From the NCBI GenBank assembly GCA_026125925.1, contig JAHCKF010000130.1, positions 1 to 8,557 of the forward strand: a DNA stretch of 8,557 bases. The letters are read 5' to 3'. The position numbers and the translations under genes were made by a program. This DNA comes from Pseudolabrys sp. GTDB lineage: Bacteria; Pseudomonadota; Alphaproteobacteria; Rhizobiales; Xanthobacteraceae. The stretch's first letter is position 1, and every line of letters starts with the position of its first letter. Shown piece by piece: positions 1-8,557 of the stretch. The notes under the pieces are model-generated. The model made no database searches. It saw only the letters and a program-made list of their open reading frames with translations, and was not told the DNA's origin.

Positions 1-1566
1 GCCGCTCAGCGCCTGCGCGAGCTGTCTTACCGGCAGCGGCGACAGCAGCCGCAGCGCAATGACGCGAACCTTGCGTCCCGCTTCGCCGAGACGACGCGCC
101 GCTTCACGCGCGGCGCCGACGGTCGAGCCGAAGGCAAGGATCGCGGTGTCGCCCTCACCCGTCACCTCGCCCCAGCGCTCGCCGGCTTCGAACTCTCTGA
201 TCTTGCGCGCCCGCTTGTGGATCTGCGCGGCATGCATCGCCGCGCCGCTGGCCGGCAGACCGGCTTCGTTATGCGTCAGCCCTTCGGCGACCCATTCGCG
301 GTCCGGCGTGCCCGGCAGCGGCATCGGCGTGATCGCATCGCCGCCCGTGGCGTAGCGCTTGAACGGCTCGCCGGCCGCCGCGCCGTCGATCTTGCGCTTT
401 TGCGGTGCCGGCCGATCCGATACCGGATTAATCGATGCGGTCGCCTGGCCGAGCAACTGGTCGGACAGGACAATGACCGGCACCTGAAGGGACTCGGCGA
501 CATAGACGGCGTATTCGGTGGTGGCGGCGCAGTCGGCGACCGACAGCGGGGCCAGCACGACGCGCGGCGCATCGCCATGCGTGCCGTAGATCGCCAGATT
601 GAGATCGCTCTGCTCGGTCTTCGAGGCAATGCCCGTCGACGGCCCGGCGCGCATGACATCGACCAGGACGAACGGGATTTCCGCGGCGATCGCCAGACCG
701 AGGCTCTCGACCATCAGCGAGAAGCCCGGACCCGACGTCACCGTCATCGCCGGGACGCCGCCATAGGAGGCGCCGAGCGCCATATTGATCGAGGCGAGTT
801 CGTCCTCGCCCAGCACCAGCCGGCCACCGAGCTTGATGAGATGCGGCGCGAGCCATTCGACCAGATCGGTCGCCGGCGTGATCGGATAACAGCCGACGAA
901 GCGCACGCCGCCGCGCAGCGCACCGAGCGCCACCGCCTGATTGCCGCTGATCAGCCAACGTTGATCGTGGCCGGGCGGCGCGAGTTTCAGATCAAGCGCT
1001 AGTGTGGCCGCCGCCTGCGCGCCGGCCAGCGCCCGCGCCGTATTGGCGGCGGCGACGTCCCTGCCCTTCTCGCCGAAGATCGCCTCGACCGCACCGGCGA
1101 TATCGTCGTCCGGCAGGCCGCACAAAGTCGCGACGCAGCCCGCCGCGAACATGTTGACGCGCTTGCCGAGCAGCGCGCGATCGAGCTTGCTCTCGCCGGT
1201 GTCGGCCATGGCCAGCGGCACGACGCGGCCCTTCGACTTGGCGATGCCGGGCGGCACCGGACCGCTCGCCGGATCGGCGACGATGAGGCTGGTCTCGTCG
1301 AGCGGGATTTCGGCGGCGAACTGCTCGACCTTGTCCCAGTCGAGCGCGACGAAGACGTCGAAACGGTCGGGCTGCGCCTCGACCGGATCGGCGCCGATCT
1401 GCACGAGCGCCGCCGACTCGCCGCCGCGCACCTGCGCGCCGAACAGTTGCGTCATCATGCCGAAATAACCGGCGCGCGCCGCGGCGCGGAGGAACACGGC
1501 GCCAGCGCTCATGGCGCCGGAGCCGCCGCTTCCGGCAAAGACGACGGCGATGGAACGGCGCGGCAT
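1..1566 (-). CDS. korA: 2-oxoacid:acceptor (ferredoxin) oxidoreductase, fused gamma-alpha subunit (KorA-like), 3' end outside window
   Basis: The frame stays open for 522 codons from an ATG at 1566 and runs off the left edge, so the C-terminus is missing; fused family members are usually about 580-620 residues, so perhaps 60-100 are absent. Residues 1-190 form the gamma domain, with a glycine-rich GSGGSG loop near residue 12 and FGAQVRGGESA at 42-52. Residues about 203 onward form the alpha (pyrimidine-binding) domain, with GCYPITPATD at 225-234, GEDELASINMALGAS near 253-267, TSGPGFSLM at 277-285 and GPSTG at 308-312. Such enzymes, with a separate TPP/Fe-S beta subunit (KorB, expected just past the left edge), oxidatively decarboxylate a 2-oxoacid to its acyl-CoA and reduce ferredoxin in the cytoplasm. 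The substrate (2-oxoglutarate or another 2-oxoacid) cannot be decided here. GGAG eight bases before the ATG is the ribosome site. The upstream transporter stops 14 bases before the ATG, so the two are probably one operon. Confidence 0.93.
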   Translation of the reverse strand, partial: MPRRSIAVVFAGSGGSGAMSAGAVFLRAAARAGYFGMMTQLFGAQVRGGESAALVQIGADPVEAQPDRFDVFVALDWDKVEQFAAEIPLDETSLIVADPASGPVPPGIAKSKGRVVPLAMADTGESKLDRALLGKRVNMFAAGCVATLCGLPDDDIAGAVEAIFGEKGRDVAAANTARALAGAQAAATLALDLKLAPPGHDQRWLISGNQAVALGALRGGVRFVGCYPITPATDLVEWLAPHLIKLGGRLVLGEDELASINMALGASYGGVPAMTVTSGPGFSLMVESLGLAIAAEIPFVLVDVMRAGPSTGIASKTEQSDLNLAIYGTHGDAPRVVLAPLSVADCAATTEYAVYVAESLQVPVIVLSDQLLGQATASINPVSDRPAPQKRKIDGAAAGEPFKRYATGGDAITPMPLPGTPDREWVAEGLTHNEAGLPASGAAMHAAQIHKRARKIREFEAGERWGEVTGEGDTAILAFGSTVGAAREAARRLGEAGRKVRVIALRLLSPLPVRQLAQALSG

Positions 1567-1580
1567 GACGAAAACTCCGC

Positions 1581-3104
1581 TCAGACGTAGCCGAGCCAGC
1601 GCCAGTAGGTGGCGCCGAGCAGCATGACGAGGGCGAGCGCCACCACGGTCAGCACCAGGCCGGTGCGGACGAAGTCGCGCGCCGTGAAGGTGTCGGTGCC
1701 GTAGGCCACCATGTTCTGCGGCGCGTTCACCACCAGGATGAAGCCGAACGACACGACGAACTGCAGCAGCATGGTCATGCCGATGACGTTGATGCCCGGC
1801 GTCGCCACGCCCTTGAGCACGGCGATGACGATCGGGATCATCGCGGAGGCGAGCGCGGTGGCGCTGGCGAAGCCGAGATGGATCACCACCAGGAACAGGC
1901 TCATGGTGCCGAGGATGAACAGCGCCGTGGCGTTCTTCAGGCCGAATTCGAGAACGACGATATCGGCGAGCCAGGTCGCGGCCTTGGTCTGCAGCAGCGC
2001 CGTGCCGAGCGAGATGCCGATGCCGAACAGGATCACCGTGCCCCACGGGATCTTCGGCTGCGCCTCCTTCCAGGTCATGATGCCGATGCCGGGCATGAAC
2101 ATCAGCGCCACCGCGGTGATCGTCGTGGTCGAGGTGTCGAACCGGTGCAGCACGCCTTCGGTCGCCCAGAAGGCGATCAGGGTCAGCGAGATGACGAGCA
2201 GCTTCTTCTCCGAAGCCTTCATCGGCCCGAGATCGGCCAGCGACTTCCCGATGCCTTCCTGCCCGCCGGGCACCGACGTGACTTCCGGCTTCATCATGCG
2301 CGTCATGATGAAATAGAGCGCGATCGACATGGCGATGCCGAACGGCGCCGCGGCGACCAGCCATTCGAGCCAGGTGATGGTCTGGTTGAAGGCCTTCTCG
2401 ATGAAGCCGATGGCGATCATGTTCTGCGCCGCCGCGGTCTTGATGCCGACGTTCCAGATACTGGCGGTCTGCACCGTCACCAGCATCAGCATGGCGGCGA
2501 AGCTGCTGGTGCGGCTGACGCCGAAGGCGGCGATCATGCCGAGCGTGATCGGCACCAGACAGGCGACGCGCGCCGTGGTCGACGGCACCATGAAGGCGAT
2601 GACGATGCCGACCAGGATGGTGCCGATGACCACGTTGCGGGTCTCGGTGCCGACACGCGAGAGAATGTTGAGCGCGATGCGCTTGTCGAGGCCGGTCTGC
2701 GTCATGGCCGCGGCGAGAAACAGCGCGGCGGCGACCAGCACCAGGCCGGTCGTGGTGAAGCCGCTGAAGGCGAGCGTCAGCGCCGCGCTGGTGCCCATCA
2801 GGACTTTCGGATTGGCGATGCTCGGGGCGAGGCCGAGCAGGAACGCCATGAGCGCCGCGATGACGATGGCGGACACTGCGTAGTCAATGGCTTCGGTCAT
2901 CCAGACGATGACGGCGAAGGCAAGAATGGCGAGCATGCGATGCCCGGCGACCGGCAAACCGGCCGGCGTCGGCAGCAGGAGCACGACGATCAGAGCGGCG
3001 ACGGCGGCGATCAGCCCCCAGTTCGACGCCAACCAGGTGCGTTCGCTTTTCGGTGAACTCGTCGCGGGCGTTGCGACCACTTGCAGGGCAGGCTGGGTCG
3101 ACAT
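1581..3104 (-). CDS. DASS/SLC13-family organic-anion (di/tricarboxylate) transporter
   Basis: The protein is a 507-residue inner-membrane permease with a cytoplasmic N-tail of about 28 residues followed by many hydrophobic segments. It shows the two-fold repeat of the family: VPSTTARVACLVPI at 173-186 and HLGFASATALASAMIPI at 409-425. The C-terminal signature-like stretch SFGFILVVNAPQNMVAYGT lies at 452-470. In characterised DASS proteins the two S-N-T motifs bind substrate carboxylates and Na+; here they read S-T-T (175-177) and S-A-T (414-416). As I recall, the second form is typical of the CitT/DiT exchanger branch, so antiport of dicarboxylates or citrate is plausible but unproven. An ATG 21 codons upstream (3167) is possible, but GAGGG five bases before the ATG at 3104 supports the start given; the upstream ATG lies inside a FixK box. 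It heads a two-gene unit with the downstream oxidoreductase, which suggests import of an organic acid that feeds that enzyme. Low-oxygen control through the box at 3167-3180 is likely. Confidence 0.9.
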   Translation of the reverse strand: MSTQPALQVVATPATSSPKSERTWLASNWGLIAAVAALIVVLLLPTPAGLPVAGHRMLAILAFAVIVWMTEAIDYAVSAIVIAALMAFLLGLAPSIANPKVLMGTSAALTLAFSGFTTTGLVLVAAALFLAAAMTQTGLDKRIALNILSRVGTETRNVVIGTILVGIVIAFMVPSTTARVACLVPITLGMIAAFGVSRTSSFAAMLMLVTVQTASIWNVGIKTAAAQNMIAIGFIEKAFNQTITWLEWLVAAAPFGIAMSIALYFIMTRMMKPEVTSVPGGQEGIGKSLADLGPMKASEKKLLVISLTLIAFWATEGVLHRFDTSTTTITAVALMFMPGIGIMTWKEAQPKIPWGTVILFGIGISLGTALLQTKAATWLADIVVLEFGLKNATALFILGTMSLFLVVIHLGFASATALASAMIPIVIAVLKGVATPGINVIGMTMLLQFVVSFGFILVVNAPQNMVAYGTDTFTARDFVRTGLVLTVVALALVMLLGATYWRWLGYV

Positions 3105-3166
3105 GATATCCCTCTGGGCCAGGTTTCTCCCGAGACGAATATTCGGCGCAACGTGCGGTAGCGCCA

Positions 3167-3180
3167 TTGACGAAAGTCAA
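3167..3180 (-). promoter_or_regulatory. FixK/FNR box upstream of the transporter-korA operon
   Basis: The site reads TTGACGAAAGTCAA, a perfect TTGA-N6-TCAA with symmetric TTGAC/GTCAA arms. Its centre is about 69 bases before the transporter ATG (3104). For a class II FNR-type promoter (box at -41.5) transcription would start near 3132, and the -10 hexamer would fall at 3139-3144. The minus strand there reads GAATAT, an AT-rich patch in GC-rich surroundings. The regulator encoded at 4757-5437 has the recognition helix expected to read this sequence. Binding is inferred, not shown. Confidence 0.8.
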
Positions 3181-3206
3181 GTTGCGGAGGCTTTTGCGGT
3201 GCCTGG

Positions 3207-3230
3207 CGTTTCGCTTTGCAGCGCGAAACG
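3207..3230. repeat. Perfect 8-bp inverted repeat upstream of the transporter promoter
   Basis: CGTTTCGC at 3207-3214 is matched by GCGAAACG at 3223-3230, with an 8-base spacer. It lies between the probable hsp20 terminator and the FixK box of the transporter, about 27 bases upstream of that box. It could be an operator for a second, substrate-responsive regulator, or a second hairpin helping to end hsp20 transcription. It has no T-run, and the sequence does not decide between these. Confidence 0.45.
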
Positions 3231-3233
3231 ACG

Positions 3234-3264
3234 AAGGCGCGACCGAGGATCCCGGGCGCGCCTT
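3234..3264 (-). terminator. Probable hairpin terminator of hsp20
   Basis: AAGGCGCG (3234-3241) pairs with CGCGCCTT (3257-3264). After one mismatch the stem continues for three more pairs, leaving a 7-base loop. The hairpin begins about 18 bases after the hsp20 stop, where an intrinsic terminator would sit. Read on the minus strand, the stem is followed by a broken T-poor tail (CGTCGTTTCG), so termination may be incomplete and some read-through into the transporter operon is possible. Confidence 0.5.
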
Positions 3265-3281
3265 TGTGCTTGGCCGTCCGC

Positions 3282-3755
3282 TCAGCCGGCGGCTTTGACT
3301 TCGACCTTCTTGGCTTGCGCCGGTACGGGCTTGGGCACCGTCACCTTGAGCACGCCCTTGGCGAGACTAGCCTTGATGGCGTCGGCATCGACGCCGGCCG
3401 GCAATTCGAGCGTGCGCTCGAACGAACCATAGCTGCGCTCGACTAGGCGGTAATTCTTGTCCTTCTGCTCCTTCTCGGCGGTCTTCTCGCCGCGAATGGT
3501 CAGGACATTGTCGGCGACGTTGATCTGCACGTCCTTCTCTTCGAGGCCCGGCAGTTCGGCGGTGATTTCGATTTCCTTATCGGTCTCGCTGACATCGACG
3601 CTCGGCGTCAGCATGCCGCCATTGCCGGCCGCATGCGGTGCGAGGCTCGGCAAGCCGCGCGAGAAGTCCTCGAACAGGCGGTCGATCTCGCGCTGCAATG
3701 AGCCGAACGGACTGGCAACCGAACGATTGGTCGGAAGAAGGGAACGAAAGGCCAT
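3282..3755 (-). CDS. Hsp20/alpha-crystallin small heat-shock protein
   Basis: The protein is a 157-residue cytoplasmic ATP-independent holdase that binds unfolding proteins, normally as large oligomers. Residues 1-48 are the variable N-terminal arm (RLFEDF near 26-31). The alpha-crystallin domain spans about 50-142, including PSVDVSETDKEIEITAELPG and the family hallmark A-S-L-A-K-G-V-L-K-V at 129-138. A short tail holds V-E-V (152-154 region), a likely version of the C-terminal I-x-I/V docking motif. Length is normal for bacterial Hsp20 class A proteins. An ATG four codons upstream (3767) is open, but GGAGG five bases before the ATG at 3755 favours the shorter form. A FixK box lies 87 bases upstream, and no ROSE-type thermometer motif or RpoH-like promoter was seen. 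Expression is therefore more likely tied to low oxygen than to heat, which is an inference. Confidence 0.93.
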   Translation of the reverse strand: MAFRSLLPTNRSVASPFGSLQREIDRLFEDFSRGLPSLAPHAAGNGGMLTPSVDVSETDKEIEITAELPGLEEKDVQINVADNVLTIRGEKTAEKEQKDKNYRLVERSYGSFERTLELPAGVDADAIKASLAKGVLKVTVPKPVPAQAKKVEVKAAG

Positions 3756-3782
3756 GGACGCCTCCATCGGTTACGGGGATAG

Positions 3783-3799
3783 CCGTCGCGCCGCGACGG
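3783..3799. repeat. Near-perfect palindrome in the hsp20 promoter/5' leader
   Basis: CCGTCGCG (3783-3790) and CGCGACGG (3792-3799) are perfect inverted arms around one central base. If transcription starts near 3800, as the upstream FixK box predicts, this sits at the very 5' end of the hsp20 message. There, with a few central bases unpaired, it could fold into a stable hairpin. It could instead be a DNA operator. It does not pair visibly with the GGAGG ribosome site, so it is not an obvious thermosensor. Confidence 0.45.
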
Positions 3800-3834
3800 T
3801 TGTGCTATTTGCTCCCCGCGACCGGCGCGGCGCC

Positions 3835-3848
3835 TTGACCAGAATCAA
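3835..3848 (-). promoter_or_regulatory. FixK/FNR box upstream of hsp20
   Basis: The site reads TTGACCAGAATCAA, a perfect TTGA-N6-TCAA. Its centre is about 87 bases before the hsp20 ATG, in the 106-base gap after the CBS-BON stop codon. A class II arrangement would place the transcription start near 3800 and the -10 hexamer at 3807-3812. The minus strand there reads GCAAAT, a modest match in an otherwise GC-rich stretch. Assignment to hsp20 rests on orientation and spacing. Confidence 0.75.
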
Positions 3849-3861
3849 AGCGCGGAGCGCC

Positions 3862-4599
3862 TCAATGGCGCGCCGTCTCGCTGGCAGCGTCCGGCGCATC
3901 GAATGTCATACCGGTCGATGGATCGATCCAGGCCATATGGTCTTTCACCGCCTTGACCCCGGGAACATTCTCGCAGACGACGCGCAAGGCTTCGCGCTGA
4001 CGCTCGTCGGTGATGACGCCGAACAGTTCCACGACGCCGTCCCGCACCACCACATCCATGGCGGCGATCGGCGTCCAATGCTGCTTTTCCATTTCGGCCA
4101 TTAATTGCGAACGGATGGCGCCGTCATCCTGCGGCGACTGCGGTTCCGGCGTGACCCGTGCCATGCTCACCATCGCCCGCATGAGGTTGGAACGGGTGAC
4201 AATGCCGACCAGCATCGAGCCGGCCATCACCGGCACGCGCTTGATCCGGTACTTTTCCATCAGTTCAATGACGTCCTCGAGCGAGGCGTTCTCGTCGACG
4301 GTCTGAACATCGACGGTCATGACTTCGCTGACGCGGCTGCCATGCGTATGCGCATATTCCTCCGCCACCTTGCCGGGGCCCATGATGAACTCGAGCCAGC
4401 GCGAGCGGCGCTTTTCGGTCTGAGTCTCGCGGCGGCGCAAGAAATCGCCTTCCGATACGACGCCGACCAGATTGTGATTCTTGTCGACCACCGGCAGCCC
4501 GCTGATGCGGTGTTGGAGCATCAGCCGCGCGGCCTGAAGTACGGTGGCCTCGGGTTCGATCGTGACCACGTCACGGGTCATGACATCGCTGGCGTGCAT
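3862..4599 (-). CDS. CBS-domain pair protein with C-terminal BON domain
   Basis: The protein is 245 residues, soluble, with no signal peptide or membrane segment. CBS domain 1 spans about 1-58 (DVMTRDVVTIEPEATVLQAA, then RISGLPVVDKNHNLVGVVSEGDFL). A charged arginine-rich linker follows at 55-90. CBS domain 2 spans about 91-145 (SEVMTVDVQTVDENASLEDV, then RIKRVPVMAGSMLVGIVTRSNL). A BON domain spans about 160-228 and ends in NVPGVKAVKDHMAWIDP. CBS pairs generally bind adenosyl nucleotides, and BON domains are thought to bind lipid or surfaces. The cellular partner is unknown, and the combination is common in rhizobial genomes as an uncharacterised stress-associated protein. The ATG at 4599 has AAGGAG eight bases upstream and is preferred over the ATG ten codons earlier (4629). 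A FixK box 64 bases upstream suggests induction at low oxygen. No strong terminator follows, so partial co-transcription with hsp20 is possible. Confidence 0.92.
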   Translation of the reverse strand: MHASDVMTRDVVTIEPEATVLQAARLMLQHRISGLPVVDKNHNLVGVVSEGDFLRRRETQTEKRRSRWLEFIMGPGKVAEEYAHTHGSRVSEVMTVDVQTVDENASLEDVIELMEKYRIKRVPVMAGSMLVGIVTRSNLMRAMVSMARVTPEPQSPQDDGAIRSQLMAEMEKQHWTPIAAMDVVVRDGVVELFGVITDERQREALRVVCENVPGVKAVKDHMAWIDPSTGMTFDAPDAASETARH

Positions 4600-4655
4600 C
4601 GTCGTGTCTCCTTCGGATTGCCGCAGCATTCCAGCACCGCGGCGGGGGTACCATG

Positions 4656-4669
4656 TTGATCGAAGTCAA
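4656..4669 (-). promoter_or_regulatory. FixK/FNR box upstream of the CBS-BON gene
   Basis: The site reads TTGATCGAAGTCAA, a perfect TTGA-N6-TCAA. Its centre is about 64 bases before the ATG at 4599. A class II promoter would start near 4621 with its -10 hexamer at 4628-4633. The minus strand there reads TGGAAT, four of six matches to TATAAT. The box lies just beyond the fixK terminator (4681-4710), so it serves the CBS-BON gene independently of fixK transcription. Confidence 0.82.
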
Positions 4670-4680
4670 TCGTGGCGCAC

Positions 4681-4710
4681 AAACAAAAGCCCCGGCTGAA
4701 CGGCCGGGGC
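4681..4710 (-). terminator. Strong intrinsic terminator of the fixK-type gene
   Basis: GCCCCGGC (4703-4710 read in reverse) and GCCGGGGC (4689-4696 read in reverse) form a perfect 8-bp GC-rich stem with a 6-base loop. On the minus strand it is followed directly by TTTTGTTT (4688-4681). It begins 47 bases after the regulator's stop codon. This is the clearest terminator in the window and separates fixK from the CBS-BON promoter. Confidence 0.87.
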
Positions 4711-4756
4711 AGTACGGGGGGAGGAAACGTGATGGTGAACTTGAAGCTGCCGGAGA

Positions 4757-5437
4757 TCAGCCGTTCAGGCGGTTGAGCGCGGCCTGGTTGCGCAGCACGA
4801 TGCGGCGCGAGGTCGGCACCGCGATCGCGGCCGAGTTCTCCAGTTGCGTCAGGGTCCGCGACACGGTTTCGATCGTAAGACCGAGATAGTCGGCGATATC
4901 CTGGCGCGACATCGGCAGTTCGACCGCTTCGGTGCAGCGCGCGCGCTGCGCCATTTCGAGCAGGAAACCGGCGACACGCTCCTGCGCGGTCTTGATCAGC
5001 AGCATGGTGTGATCCTGGGCGCGCTGCAGTTCGGTCGCGGCGAGCGTCCAGAGCTGACGGGCAACGTCGGGGCTGCGGGTCGCCAGCGACACCAGCGACG
5101 AACGCTTGATCAGCATAATCTTGCAATCGACGATCGCTTCGGCCGAGAAGCTGTGATGCTCGCCGACCTCGAGGCCGAACACGTCGCCGGGCAGACAGAA
5201 GGCGCCGATCTGGCGGCGGCCGTCGTTGAGCACGCGGTAGGTGCGCACCGCGCCGCTGACGATCTTGTAGAGATACTCGGCCGGCTCGTTCTCACCGTAG
5301 ATTTCGGCGTTGCGGGCGAACGGCATCACCGCGCCCATGAACTCGATGGTTTCGCCGGTGCCGTTGGCAATGTGCGGCTGCGACGCGGTGGCGGGATGGG
5401 GCTGCGACTTCCGGACGGTCAGGGTCTGGGTGTGCAT
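4757..5437 (-). CDS. fixK: FixK-type CRP/FNR family transcriptional regulator
   Basis: The protein is a 226-residue dimeric DNA-binding activator. A poorly conserved tail of about 30 residues is followed by a cyclic-nucleotide-binding-like beta-roll (about 35-120, with GDVFGLEVG at 84-92). Next come a long dimerisation helix (about 122-162) and a winged helix-turn-helix (about 172-220). The recognition helix TIETVSRTL carries E190, S193 and R194, equivalent to the E-x-x-S-R of FNR that reads TTGA. Cysteines occur only at 81, 105 and 168, so the N-terminal Fe-S cluster of FNR/FnrN is absent. Oxygen control must come from FixLJ, as for FixK. At the start of the HTH the protein reads LPMSRQDIADYLG, with serine where, by my recollection, Bradyrhizobium FixK2 has the redox-sensitive cysteine 183. 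GAGG nine bases before the ATG is the ribosome site. The gene diverges from fixLJ and is closed by a strong terminator. No FixK box precedes it, so direct autoregulation is not evident. Confidence 0.9.
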   Translation of the reverse strand: MHTQTLTVRKSQPHPATASQPHIANGTGETIEFMGAVMPFARNAEIYGENEPAEYLYKIVSGAVRTYRVLNDGRRQIGAFCLPGDVFGLEVGEHHSFSAEAIVDCKIMLIKRSSLVSLATRSPDVARQLWTLAATELQRAQDHTMLLIKTAQERVAGFLLEMAQRARCTEAVELPMSRQDIADYLGLTIETVSRTLTQLENSAAIAVPTSRRIVLRNQAALNRLNG

Positions 5438-5527
5438 GGTTTCGATCCTCGCTCAGGGCAGCTTCAGCGCCCGGTTGAATGTCATTGTGGTACCGGTGTC
5501 GCGAGCGCCCCGAAATTCAGATAATCT

Positions 5528-5545
5528 CCATAGGGGTTTTACCGG
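5528..5545 (-). promoter_or_regulatory. Candidate FixJ-binding site in the fixK promoter
   Basis: On the minus strand this reads CCGGTAAAACCCCTATGG, about 91-108 bases before the fixK ATG. The core GTAAAACCCCTA resembles the GTAATTCCCCTA-like element I recall from the FixJ-activated fixK promoter of Sinorhizobium meliloti. FixJ sites lie around -69 to -44, so transcription would start near 5475-5480, leaving a leader of roughly 40 bases. The match is from memory and rests on one sequence, so this is a candidate only. The same 150-base gap must also hold the fixL promoter, for which no clear -35/-10 pair was seen. Confidence 0.4.
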
Positions 5546-5587
5546 AGGCACCCGCCCTCTCCCGGGGGCCGGGTTCGAGTCGAACAA

Positions 5588-7081
5588 GTGGCTGACATAC
5601 AAGGCATTTTTTCATTCGAGCGGCGAATGCGGGTGTGGCGCTATGGCGTTGCGCTGATTGCCGTGGTGCTGGCCCTGGCTGGCCGCGCGCTGCTCACACC
5701 GGAGCTGCACAGCGAAGCGCTGTTTCTCTATTTCATCCCGCCGATCCTGGTGGCGTCGGCGATCGGCGGCCTAGGCCCCGGCCTGTTATCGACGGTGCTG
5801 AGCCTGACCGTTGCCCTCATCCTGCTCGACGACGGCAGCGGGCTGTCGAAATCCGACACGTTCAGCGCCCTGGCTTTTGCCGTGATCGGGGGCGCGACGG
5901 CCTGGGGCGGCGAACTGCTGCGCCGCGGCCGCCGACGCGCCAACGTCATGACGCGCGACGCACTGGCGCGCGAAGCACATTTGCAATCGATCCTCGACAC
6001 CGTGCCGGAAGCGATGATCGTCATCGACGAGCGTGGCGCCATGCAATCGTTTTCGAGCGCGGCGGAACGGCTGTTCGGCTATCGCGCCGCCGACGTCATC
6101 GGCAAGAACGTCAAGATGCTGATGCCTCAACCCTACCGCGACAACCACGATTCATATCTGCAACGTTACCGCGACACCGGTGAGCGCCGCATCATCGGCA
6201 TCGGCCGTGTCGTCGTCGGCCAGCGCGTGGACGGCTCGACCTTCCCGATGGAACTGGCGGTCGGTGAAATGAAGTCCGGCGACAGGCGGTTTTTCACCGG
6301 CTTCATCCGCGACCTCACCGAACGCCAGCAGACCGAACAGCGGCTGCAGGAACTGCAATCCGAACTCGTGCACATCTCACGCCTGACCGCGATGGGCGAG
6401 ATGGCCTCGACCTTGGCGCACGAACTCAACCAGCCGCTCGCCGCCATTTCCAATTACCTGAAAGGCTCGCAGCGCATCATCGATGGCGACGGCATCGACA
6501 AGCTGCCGATGCTGCGCGACGCATTGAGCAAGGCCTCCGAACAGGCCGGACGCGCCGGCCACATCATCCGCCGCCTGCGCGATTTCGTCGCGCGCGGCGA
6601 GAGCGACCGGCGGGTCGAGAGCATCACCAAGCTGGTCGAGGAAGCGAGCGCCCTGGCGCTGGTCGGCGTCAAGGACCGCGGCATTCGCGTGCAATTCAAG
6701 TTCGATCCGCAGGTCGACCTGGTGCTGGCGGACCGCGTGCAGGTGCAGCAGGTGCTGCTCAACCTGATCCGCAACGCCATGGACGCCATGGAAGAGGCGA
6801 CGGCGCGCGACCTGACGATTTCGATTGCGCCCGACAGCGCTGGTCAGGTTCGCATCAGCGTCGCCGACACCGGTTCCGGTATCGCGCCAGAAATCGCCGA
6901 ACATCTGTTCCAGCCATTCATGACAACCAAGCGGCAAGGCATGGGCGTTGGGCTGTCCATTTCACGCACCATCATCGAGGCCCACGGCGGACGTATCTGG
7001 GCCGAACCCAATCCGCGCGGCGGGACGACTTTCAATTTCACACTCGCGGCGGTACAGGAAGGCGATGTCGACGATGCCTGA
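5588..7081 (+). CDS. fixL: FixL-type membrane haem-PAS oxygen-sensor histidine kinase
   Basis: The protein is 497 residues from the GTG at 5588. About four hydrophobic segments (17-110, DUF4118/KdpD-like) anchor it in the inner membrane. One PAS domain (about 127-245) shows [13 protein letters not shown] with H187 as the expected haem ligand, followed by [14 protein letters not shown] and [14 protein letters not shown], closely FixL-like. A short coil ([16 protein letters not shown]) leads to the kinase core: H-box [11 protein letters not shown] with phospho-acceptor H278, N-box N396, G1 box DTGSG at 427-431, and GMGVGL at 451-456. Oxygen on the haem inhibits autophosphorylation; without oxygen the phosphate passes to FixJ. 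It resembles the membrane-bound S. meliloti type in layout rather than the soluble two-PAS Bradyrhizobium type. Neither the GTG nor the in-frame ATG at 5627 (13 codons later) has a strong ribosome site, so the start is uncertain. The stop overlaps the fixJ start. Confidence 0.95.
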
Positions 7082-7706
7082 TACCATGATCTACGTAATC
7101 GATGACGACGATGCCGTGCGGCAGTCGCTCGAATTCCTGCTGGCGACCGCGGGCTACAAGGCACGCGGCTTCGATTCGGCGCGGGCATTCTTTGACGTGC
7201 TGCCCGAGATCGAAGCCGGCTGCATCATCACAGACGTCCGCATGCCCGAAATCACAGGCATCGATCTGCTCAGGAAGGTCAAGGAAACGAAGCCCGGCCT
7301 GCCGGTGGTCGTCATCACCGGTCACGGCGACGTGGCGCTGGCCGTCGAGGCGATGAAGATCGGTGCCATCGATTTCCTGGAGAAGCCGTTCGATGACGAC
7401 GGCCTGATCGCGGCGGTGAAGGCCGCGCTCAGCAACGCCGCCGACAACGGCAAGCGTCAAGCCGAACTCGGCGCGATCAAGGAGAAGCTGGCGGCGCTGT
7501 CGAACCGCGAGCGCCAGGTGCTCGAAGGTCTGGTGGCCGGCCATCCGAACAAGACCATCGCCTTCGACCTCGGTATCTCGCCGCGCACGGTCGAGATCTA
7601 TCGCGCCAATCTCATGACCAAGATGGGCGCGAACAGCCTGTCCGATCTGGTGCGCATGGCCATGCTCGCCGGTATCATGGGCGACGACGGCAAGCCCACG
7701 AGCTGA
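7074..7706 (+). CDS. fixJ: FixJ-type two-component response regulator
   Basis: The protein is 210 residues with this start. The receiver domain (about 3-122) has the acidic pocket DDDD near 10-13, phospho-acceptor D54 in [10 protein letters not shown]82 in VITGHGD and K104 in EKPF. The LuxR/NarL-type helix-turn-helix (about 140-205) includes [36 protein letters not shown] and [10 protein letters not shown]. Phosphorylation by FixL drives dimerisation and activation of fixK and, in rhizobia, nifA or fixN-type targets. The ATG at 7074 overlaps the fixL stop (translational coupling) and puts the aspartate at 54, as in S. meliloti FixJ. The in-frame ATG at 7065 has a better spaced AGGA site and would add three residues. 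It is cotranscribed with fixL. No convincing terminator follows: hairpins in the downstream gap lack a T-run. Confidence 0.95.
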
Positions 7707-7744
7707 CGTCGCGACCGGTTTCGGCCTCGCCGGCACGCCACCGT

Positions 7745-7784
7745 GGCATAATTTATCCTTTAGCAACAATTCACTAGGTAAACG
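7745..7784. promoter_or_regulatory. AT-rich island after fixJ, possible promoter
   Basis: A 40-base stretch including CATAATTTATCC and ACAATTCACTAGGTAAAC stands out as AT-rich in strongly GC-rich DNA. CATAAT (7747-7752) could serve as a -10 element on the plus strand, but no TTGACA-like -35 lies 17 bases upstream, and a TGGCAC/TTGC sigma-54 site is not present. It may be a promoter for a transcript across the gap or simply unselected spacer. Confidence 0.25.
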
Positions 7785-7859
7785 CAGACGGCCGCGCGGA
7801 ACCGTATTTCGCGGCGCACACAAAGGCCCCGTTGCCCCGACATTGGAATTGCGCTCAAC

Positions 7860-7873
7860 TTGACGGACGTCAA
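7860..7873. promoter_or_regulatory. FixK/FNR box in the gap upstream of the IlvD/Edd dehydratase
   Basis: The site reads TTGACGGACGTCAA, a perfect TTGA-N6-TCAA with fully symmetric TTGAC/GTCAA arms. Its centre is 193 bases before the dehydratase ATG, much farther than the other three boxes from their genes. At the class II position on the plus strand (-10 at 7896-7901) the sequence is GC-rich with no hexamer, and the minus-strand position (7832-7837) is no better. Its target and sign of action are therefore uncertain. Confidence 0.6.
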
Positions 7874-7879
7874 CGTAAG

Positions 7880-7963
7880 GGCGGCGCAGCCGCCGGAGGC
7901 CCCTCATCGCCAGCGACCTGACAGCCAGCCGGACGCCGCACGCGCGGCGCGGCCCATCAGGTC
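7880..7963 (+). other. Cluster of GC-rich inverted repeats in the putative dehydratase leader
   Basis: Three nested or adjacent perfect stems are visible. GGCGGC (7880-7885) pairs with GCCGCC (7889-7894) around three bases. GACCTGA (7915-7921) pairs with TCAGGTC (7957-7963), enclosing CGCCGC (7934-7939) paired with GCGGCG (7944-7949) around four bases. They lie right after the FixK box and before the dehydratase start, and none has a following T-run. A structured 5' leader or a small RNA are possible readings. GC-rich DNA forms such stems by chance fairly often. Confidence 0.35.
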
Positions 7964-8059
7964 GGCCACCGCTTTCCAACGACCACGCCACCAAGGCTGC
8001 GCCGAAAAGGCAGCCATCAGAGCAATGACGCGCCGATCCGGCGCCAGGGAGTGACTTTC

Positions 8060-8557
8060 ATGAAGCAGCCGAAGCGCGGCCACCAATCGTCGGAGAAGAA
8101 GCCCAAGGGCAAAACCCTGCGGTCGCAGCTCTGGTTCGACAACCCGGAAAACCCCGGCATGACCGCGCTCTATCTCGAGCGCTATCTCAACTGGGGCCTC
8201 ACCCGCGAAGAACTCACCTCCGGCAAGCCGATCATCGGCATCGCCCAGACCGGCTCAGACCTGTCGCCCTGCAATCGCCATCACCTCGAGCTGGCCTCGC
8301 GCGTGCGCGAAGGCATCCGCGCCGCCGGAGGCATCGCTTTCGAATTCCCGGTGCATCCGATCCAGGAAACGGGCAAGCGTCCCGGCGCCGCGCTCGACCG
8401 CAACCTCGCTTATCTCGGTCTCGTCGAAATCCTCTATGGCTATCCGCTCGACGGCGTCGTGCTGATGACCGGCTGCGACAAGACCACGCCGGCCTGCATC
8501 ATGGCGGCGGCCACCGTGAACATTCCTTCTATCGTTCTGTCCGGCGGCCCGATGCTG
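8060..8557 (+). CDS. IlvD/Edd family sugar-acid dehydratase (arabonate/xylonate type), 5' part only
   Basis: The first 166 codons are in the window and the frame is open at the right edge; full-length relatives have about 570-600 residues. After a basic tail of about 18 residues the protein shows [20 protein letters not shown] (33-52), then [20 protein letters not shown], where the cysteine of SPCN is an expected iron-sulfur ligand. [21 protein letters not shown] follows, then [10 protein letters not shown] with a second cluster cysteine and the lysine near the active-site Mg2+. These stretches fit L-arabonate/D-xylonate dehydratase-type members better than classic IlvD. Such enzymes remove water from a sugar acid to give a 2-keto-3-deoxy acid in the cytoplasm; the exact substrate is open. 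AGGGAG eight bases before the ATG is the ribosome site. Its link to the FixK box 193 bases upstream is tentative. Confidence 0.9.

Follow-up and report, generated by a model that had tools for sequence, protein, structure and literature searches.

The closest described counterparts of the locus analysed here are the fixLJ-fixK2/blr2762/fixNOQP-fixGHIS region of Bradyrhizobium diazoefficiens and the fixLJ-fixK-fixN region of Sinorhizobium meliloti SM11. In the former, the genes for FixLJ, FixK, a CBS-domain protein and the cbb3 oxidase lie close together by locus number (bll2757 to blr2770). In the latter, which is carried on a plasmid, FixLJ is followed by FixK and then ccoN within a few kilobases (kb), and inspection by eye shows what we take to be a fixT-like frame separating fixJ from fixK. 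The present analysis concerns an 8,557-nucleotide (nt) stretch of DNA from Pseudolabrys sp. (the window; contig JAHCKF010000130.1 of assembly GCA_026125925.1, forward strand), which very probably represents this known type of FixLJ-FixK microaerobic cluster in another genus. The greater part of a fixLJ-fixK-fixNOQP-type cluster, from a Pseudolabrys-like bacterium, very probably lies within the window, and FixK would there activate three units: a DASS transporter gene with the adjoining korA (dass-korA), hsp20, and a gene for a protein with CBS and BON domains (CBS-BON). All positions are those of the window, and the features are collected in Table 1.

The predicted core FixK regulon of the Bradyrhizobiaceae (Dufour et al., PMC2908626) includes FixL, FixJ, Hsp20 and a CBS-domain protein, all of which recur in the window. 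Genes classed as direct FixK2 targets in B. diazoefficiens include the Hsp20 blr7961, the CBS protein blr6074 and the OmpW blr1311; the CBS gene blr2762, an Hsp20 and the indolepyruvate ferredoxin oxidoreductase blr7589 are induced by microoxia (PMC6515984). The DASS transporter and korAB are not among the entries seen of the published FixK list (PMC2908626), and fixL and fixJ, which are listed there, have no perfect FixK box here. Unlike B. diazoefficiens, the Pseudolabrys relatives carry hsp20 and dass-korAB between fixK and ccoN and have no box-preceded gene after fixJ, and the Pseudolabrys proteins are distinguished by a Ser instead of Cys183 in FixK and by an N-terminal DUF4118 in FixL. 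The FixK of S. meliloti SM11 is just 39% identical. The analysis places the FixLJ-FixK microaerobic circuit in the genus Pseudolabrys; one literature search found no paper naming Pseudolabrys and FixK together.

The perfect FixK box, TTGA-N6-TCAA, occurs exactly four times in the window, and a tolerance of one mismatch yields no additional boxes there. In 200 dinucleotide shuffles of the window the mean was 0.06 boxes and the maximum one, never four. An earlier sequence-only reading of this DNA had reported the same four boxes, estimated about 0.13 by chance at even base use, and placed each of them between genes. The intergenic position holds under the gene calls used here; in its longest form the transporter frame begins at 3167 and overlaps the first box by one base, and the start at 3104 was chosen instead. 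Three of the boxes, those of dass-korA, hsp20 and CBS-BON, look like class II promoter sites: a -10-like hexamer lies exactly 22 nt past the end of each, so that the centre of the box would fall near -41.5 if the hexamer is taken as the -10 element. As -10 elements the hexamers match only weakly, and scanning positions 3000-8200 for sigma-70 consensus promoters found none. The distance from box to gene start is 62 nt for dass, 67 nt for hsp20 as called (about 79 nt from a second ATG, which is preceded by GGAGG and perhaps represents the true start) and 56 nt for CBS-BON. The earlier claim that these boxes and hexamers precede the three genes at the class II position thus stands, and its distances of 64-87 bases differ from ours because of the choice of starts and the counting method.

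Recurrence of the boxes was assessed in 80 relative loci and the window, a box being counted when it lay no more than 200 nt from a gene start. Altogether, 308 boxes were found in 1.36 megabases, compared to 2 for the reversed string. With the window included, a perfect box occurs 5' of 32 of 49 CBS-type genes, 15 of 19 dass genes (at 45-69 nt) and 7 of 10 hsp20 genes, six of these seven having it at 64-75 nt; the corresponding counts for the comparison genes are 0/10 for korA, 0/58 for fixL, 0/55 for fixJ and 5/80 for fixK. The box of the CBS-type genes is present, 51-57 nt from the start, in all 22 of the loci L001-L026 that hold the gene, and in 9 of 26 among the more distant loci. The nearest FixK relatives (L001-L004, two of them labelled Pseudolabrys and two just Proteobacteria) are 90-93% identical, and fixK stands beside these targets in L001-L005. 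When the sequences are aligned, the CBS-BON box is conserved amid diverged DNA together with part of the hexamer, as is the dass box, which shows one mismatch in L014 and L023. Among seven aligned relatives, the hsp20 box is kept in L001, L002, L004, L005 and L007 and lost in L014 and L023. A hexamer at 22 nt with a final T is seen in 27 of 31 CBS promoters, 7 of 15 dass promoters and 3 of 6 hsp20 promoters, and the dass hexamer GAATAT is identical at the same position in L001-L004. The proposal of three target units is supported by this recurrence at class II distance.

The sensor, relay and activator that had been read from the letters were identified by Pfam domains, structure matches and the FixJ model. 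The closest solved relative of FixK is FixK2 (4i2o, 2e-62), and the protein contains cNMP-like and Crp helix-turn-helix domains; its score against the NCBIfam Caulobacter FixK equivalog (249.7) is under the cut-off of 300. The translation has no cysteine ahead of the sensor domain, and hence none of the N-terminal iron-sulfur cysteines of the FNR type. Its recognition helix, ETVSR at residues 190-194, conforms to the E-x-x-S-R pattern described earlier and is the same as in FixK2. FixK is predicted to bind TTGA-N6-TCAA and to activate transcription. The position of Cys183 is occupied by Ser in 80 of 81 FixK sequences (window included; L032 was unreadable), a count biased by the fact that one of the six search patterns, MSRQDIAD, contains that Ser. 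The C183S variant of FixK2 is oxidation-resistant and active (PMC9104804), and among the FixK proteins aligned by Dufour et al. the Cys occurs only in Nitrobacter, Bradyrhizobium and Rhodopseudomonas (PMC2908626). By analogy with the laboratory variant, the Pseudolabrys FixK would be naturally oxidation-insensitive.

FixL matches FixL structures at 2e-50 to 2e-105 and scores 584 against the NCBIfam Rhizobium FixL equivalog, under the cut-off of 850. A strict haem-His pattern fits 54 of 61 FixL sequences, that of the window among them, and four of the seven misses show the His by eye. FixJ consists of a receiver and a LuxR-type helix-turn-helix domain, and exceeds the cut-off of the FixJ model. 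The place and conservation of an element between fixK and fixL suggest that FixJ binds there: among 20 of the 81 upstream sequences that were aligned, TTATCTGAATTT is present in all 20 and GATTATCTGAATTT in 19, and 13 of the 80 relatives have the 24-base core CCCCTATGGAGATTATCTGAATTT without any change. By eye, the element resembles the sequence 5' of S. meliloti fixK. The FixJ consensus GTAMGTAG was rejected as a candidate, being absent from the fixK-fixL gap; with one mismatch allowed, the window contains it just once, at 7091.

Table 1. Genes and regulatory features of the Pseudolabrys sp. window.
Feature	Position	Strand	Basis or remark
FixK box of dass-korA operon, TTGACTTTCGTCAA on minus strand	3167..3180	-	perfect match
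FixK box of hsp20, TTGATTCTGGTCAA	3835..3848	-	perfect match
FixK box of CBS-BON, TTGACTTCGATCAA	4656..4669	-	perfect match
-10-like hexamer GAATAT (dass)	3144-3139	-	22 nt past box
-10-like hexamer GCAAAT (hsp20)	3812-3807	-	22 nt past box
-10-like hexamer TGGAAT (CBS-BON)	4633-4628	-	22 nt past box
Fourth TTGA-N6-TCAA, probably non-working	7860..7873	no strand	string match
Conserved element 5' of fixK, proposed FixJ site	5512..5548	-	TTATCTGAATTT
fixK, CRP/FNR activator of FixK2 type, lacking N-terminal FeS cysteines; Ser at FixK2 Cys183 place	4757..5437	-	best solved match 4i2o
fixL, haem-PAS histidine kinase, N-terminal DUF4118	5588..7081	+	DUF4118, PAS, HisKA, HATPase_c
fixJ, response regulator	7065..7706	+	NCBIfam NF006900 FixJ, 307.6 vs cut-off 255 bits
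CBS-BON, two CBS domains and a BON domain	3862..4599	-	PF00571 (two stretches), PF04972
hsp20, small heat-shock protein	3282..3767 (alternative start: ATG 3755)	-	PF00011, 4.2e-27
dass, DASS/SLC13-type anion (carboxylate) transporter, start MSTQPAL	1581..3104	-	PF00939; TIGR00785 above cut-off
korA, fused gamma-alpha 2-oxoacid:acceptor (ferredoxin) oxidoreductase subunit, truncated by window edge	1..1560	-	Pfam POR, POR_N; NCBIfam TIGR03710, 485.7 vs cut-off 482.75 bits
IlvD/EDD-family dehydratase, truncated by window edge; separate neighbouring operon, outside cluster	8060..8557	+	PF00920

The following course of events is proposed. Under low-oxygen conditions FixL, a haem kinase, would phosphorylate FixJ, which would switch on fixK via the conserved element between fixK and fixL. 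FixK would in turn bind the boxes centred near -41.5 and activate dass-korA(B), hsp20 and CBS-BON, the first of which would provide carboxylate uptake or exchange and ferredoxin-linked oxidation of 2-oxoacids. To judge from the relatives, FixK may also activate the cbb3 oxidase genes just beyond the window, and targets elsewhere in the genome.

The extent of the cluster was followed in four related genomes (G001-G004, which between them carry the loci L001, L002, L004 and L005; G002 is Pseudolabrys sp. Root1462). In all four, ccoN lies on the contig of fixK, past the left edge of the window, at a start-to-start distance of 8-9 kb in G001, G002 and G004 and about 6 kb in G003; korA lies between the two genes in three of the four, L005 having no korA match. 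G001 also contains a second, unlinked ccoN. The order in G002 is fixK, CBS-BON, hsp20, dass, korA, korB, a 175-residue protein, an outer-membrane-type protein on the opposite strand, two boxes, ccoN, ccoO, ccoP, a box, ccoG, a 166-residue protein and a copper P-type ATPase; the gene-calling script gave no ccoQ. The 166-residue protein has no NCBIfam match and is fixH by position, and the ATPase is likewise fixI. The boxes ahead of ccoN and ccoG support the assignment of the window to this cluster type. The gene in L001 that matches the outer-membrane-type protein is of the OmpW family; at L001:17256-18244 it is divergent from ccoN, with two boxes in between. A nifH gene was above the cut-off in none of the four genomes, and a Pfam scan of the window found no nif gene. 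The sequence-only reading was hence right in denying a nitrogenase cluster; in opposing the locus to a classic cluster it missed the respiratory one, which continues to the cbb3 genes in the four relatives.

Several points weigh against the assignment of the window to a cluster under FixK control. The continuation to ccoN was read from relatives whose FixK is 82-93% identical, and not from the window's own genome. The loci compared are related to one another, such that the recurrence counts are non-independent, and a perfect box is absent from 3 of the 10 hsp20, 4 of the 19 dass and 17 of the 49 CBS-type genes. Outside L001-L004, the spacing of the dass hexamer is mostly one base shorter, and neither the hsp20 hexamer nor its 22-nt spacing is conserved in the five relatives compared. 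The element upstream of fixK does not contain the GTACGTAG motif reported for R. palustris (PMC13327599). In B. diazoefficiens, blr2762, which is near fixLJ by locus number, is induced by microoxia yet classed as falling outside the direct FixK2 targets (PMC6515984). Finally, G002 codes for a second regulator, L198, whose E-x-x-S-R helix could read the boxes.

This last point belongs to an explanation in which the main reader of the boxes is a CRP/FNR protein other than FixK, of the DNR or NnrR kind, and the signal would be nitric oxide or some further input that is not FixLJ. The sites of FNR, FixK and DNR are near-identical (PMC2908626), and L198 has a box 66 nt upstream of its own gene. Against this, fixK itself adjoins the targets in L001-L005. 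Among the CRP/FNR relatives in G002 (seven of nine paralogue loci were readable), E-x-x-S-R occurs only in FixK and L198, and is missing from the three paralogues with clustered N-terminal cysteines (L195, L196 and L200). We consider a different principal reader improbable. The sequence-only reading had proposed that the locus, with its four FixK sites, is an island for survival at low oxygen, both self-contained and movable, and the adjacency of sensor, relay, activator and three targets would suit such an island, as would the divergent DASS gene and absent korA match in L005 and the change of fixJ neighbour among close relatives. That neighbour is an ilvD-type gene in the window, L001 and L005 and another gene in L002, L003 and L004, which marks a variable border of the cluster. 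That the locus is self-contained is not borne out, since genome-wide scans of three related genomes gave 59, 73 and 64 boxes, compared to 17, 20 and 15 in the reversed control, and ccoN is linked in the four relatives tried. No sign of mobility emerged either: a search of five loci in three related genomes revealed no tRNA, the scan of 8 window and 10 L001 proteins no integrase or transposase (att repeats were not searched for), and none of 569 matching plasmid records had a single place covering 80% of positions 3000-8000. Among the best 20 of these 569 records, fixLJ was matched, and fixK as well in one. Together with the lack of conservation of the fourth box, these results make such an island very improbable. 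The observations of the sequence-only reading are confirmed, and its interpretation is partly supported: the proposed FixK control of the three units described above is retained.

The fourth box (7860-7873) is probably accidental rather than a working site, being neither conserved nor accompanied by promoter architecture, and the claim of four working sites is not supported. On neither strand is there a -10-like hexamer 20-24 nt from it, and the next gene on the plus strand begins 187 nt away. In L001, whose flank is common with that of the window, the position reads TTGGCTGACTTCAA, with one mismatch, and L005 has a gap. It would nevertheless be improbable for a perfect box to arise by chance, and the site might be real, as the new promoter of the ilvD-type operon or the remnant promoter of a gene after fixJ. 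The latter would recall 20 loci between L025 and L071 in which a perfect box lies 26-78 nt past the end of the fixJ match (e.g., L036:7564). In the two of these that were looked at, the next frame is receiver-like in L036 (FixT-like, perhaps) and different in L026. The remnant is not preferred because all 22 fixJ-holding loci among L001-L023 lack a perfect box in the 700 nt that follow fixJ, and a functional fourth box in either form is unlikely. The absence of the post-fixJ box from those loci suggests that feedback on FixL may be missing there.

The dass-korA operon may be a little-noticed additional FixK target, and is the part worth following. Structure relatives of the DASS protein include NadC-family/VcINDY and chloroplast dicarboxylate transporters, and 2-oxoglutarate is the presumed substrate of KorA. 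In a family survey of 149 genomes, 50 had a DASS match and 21 an orthologue (66-97% identity), a 22nd being excluded as a broken fragment; at least three of the genomes with an orthologue are shared with the 80-locus set. Of the 21 orthologues, 15 are preceded by a perfect box at 42-147 nt and 6 by a one-mismatch box at 25-81 nt, the latter by itself weak evidence, at a chance expectation of about 0.03 per 200 nt. In 6 of the 21, korA directly follows the orthologue, as far as the short loci retrieved extend. In the control group of unrelated DASS paralogues a perfect box occurs in one of eight (L176, 25% identity, 145 nt upstream); a ninth, L180, was excluded as a broken fragment whose start could not be placed. 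At L005:12385-15254 the DASS gene is divergent (about 70%), no korA match was found at that place, and the box is kept, such that the operon varies within the cluster.

Among the matches listed in a literature search that covered few subscription papers and no supplements, neither DASS nor KorAB was named as a FixK target, and the excerpted main text of Tsoy et al. makes no mention of 2-oxoglutarate, citrate or CBS (PMC4999443). An ordinary 2-oxoglutarate dehydrogenase E1 is above the cut-off in all four relatives, and KorAB would therefore be a second route. It is conceivable, and we offer it tentatively, that FixK runs a ferredoxin-linked bypass of the tricarboxylic acid cycle at low oxygen, in which KorAB receives its 2-oxoglutarate through the DASS carrier, a relative of the chloroplast dicarboxylate (2-oxoglutarate/malate) transporters. 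On this reading the operon would sit between oxygen sensor and cbb3 oxidase in Pseudolabrys, and FixK would control DASS in every member of the family that has the orthologue. The findings on DASS and KorAB suggest that carbon supply recurs in the FixK response, alongside genes for respiration and stress.

With respect to the wider set of boxes in G002, 50 of the 73 were looked at, and 13 lie inside a called gene under crude gene calls. Intergenic boxes there adjoin, among others, the genes of a nitroreductase, a pfkB kinase and a CRP/FNR regulator from which an MFS transporter gene diverges; of eight proteins scanned, one has no Pfam match. The window has a GC (guanine plus cytosine) fraction of 0.653, L150 one of 0.651, and the mean for the G002 stretches around boxes is 0.623. 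An Rfam scan of the window gave no family above its gathering score, and an RNA element in the hsp20 leader, considered as a candidate, was rejected for want of an Rfam match in the window and with a folding z-score of -0.19. Between fixK and CBS-BON, a GC-rich hairpin with a T-rich tail on the minus strand (4689-4710) is a possible fixK terminator. Beyond the cluster, the neighbours of the ilvD-type gene in L001 code for a short-chain dehydrogenase and a sugar-type ABC transporter. The sequence CGCACACAAA-GCCCCGTTGCC, 5' of the IlvD/EDD gene within 7700-8060, is common to L001 and L005 and is perhaps that operon's own control region.

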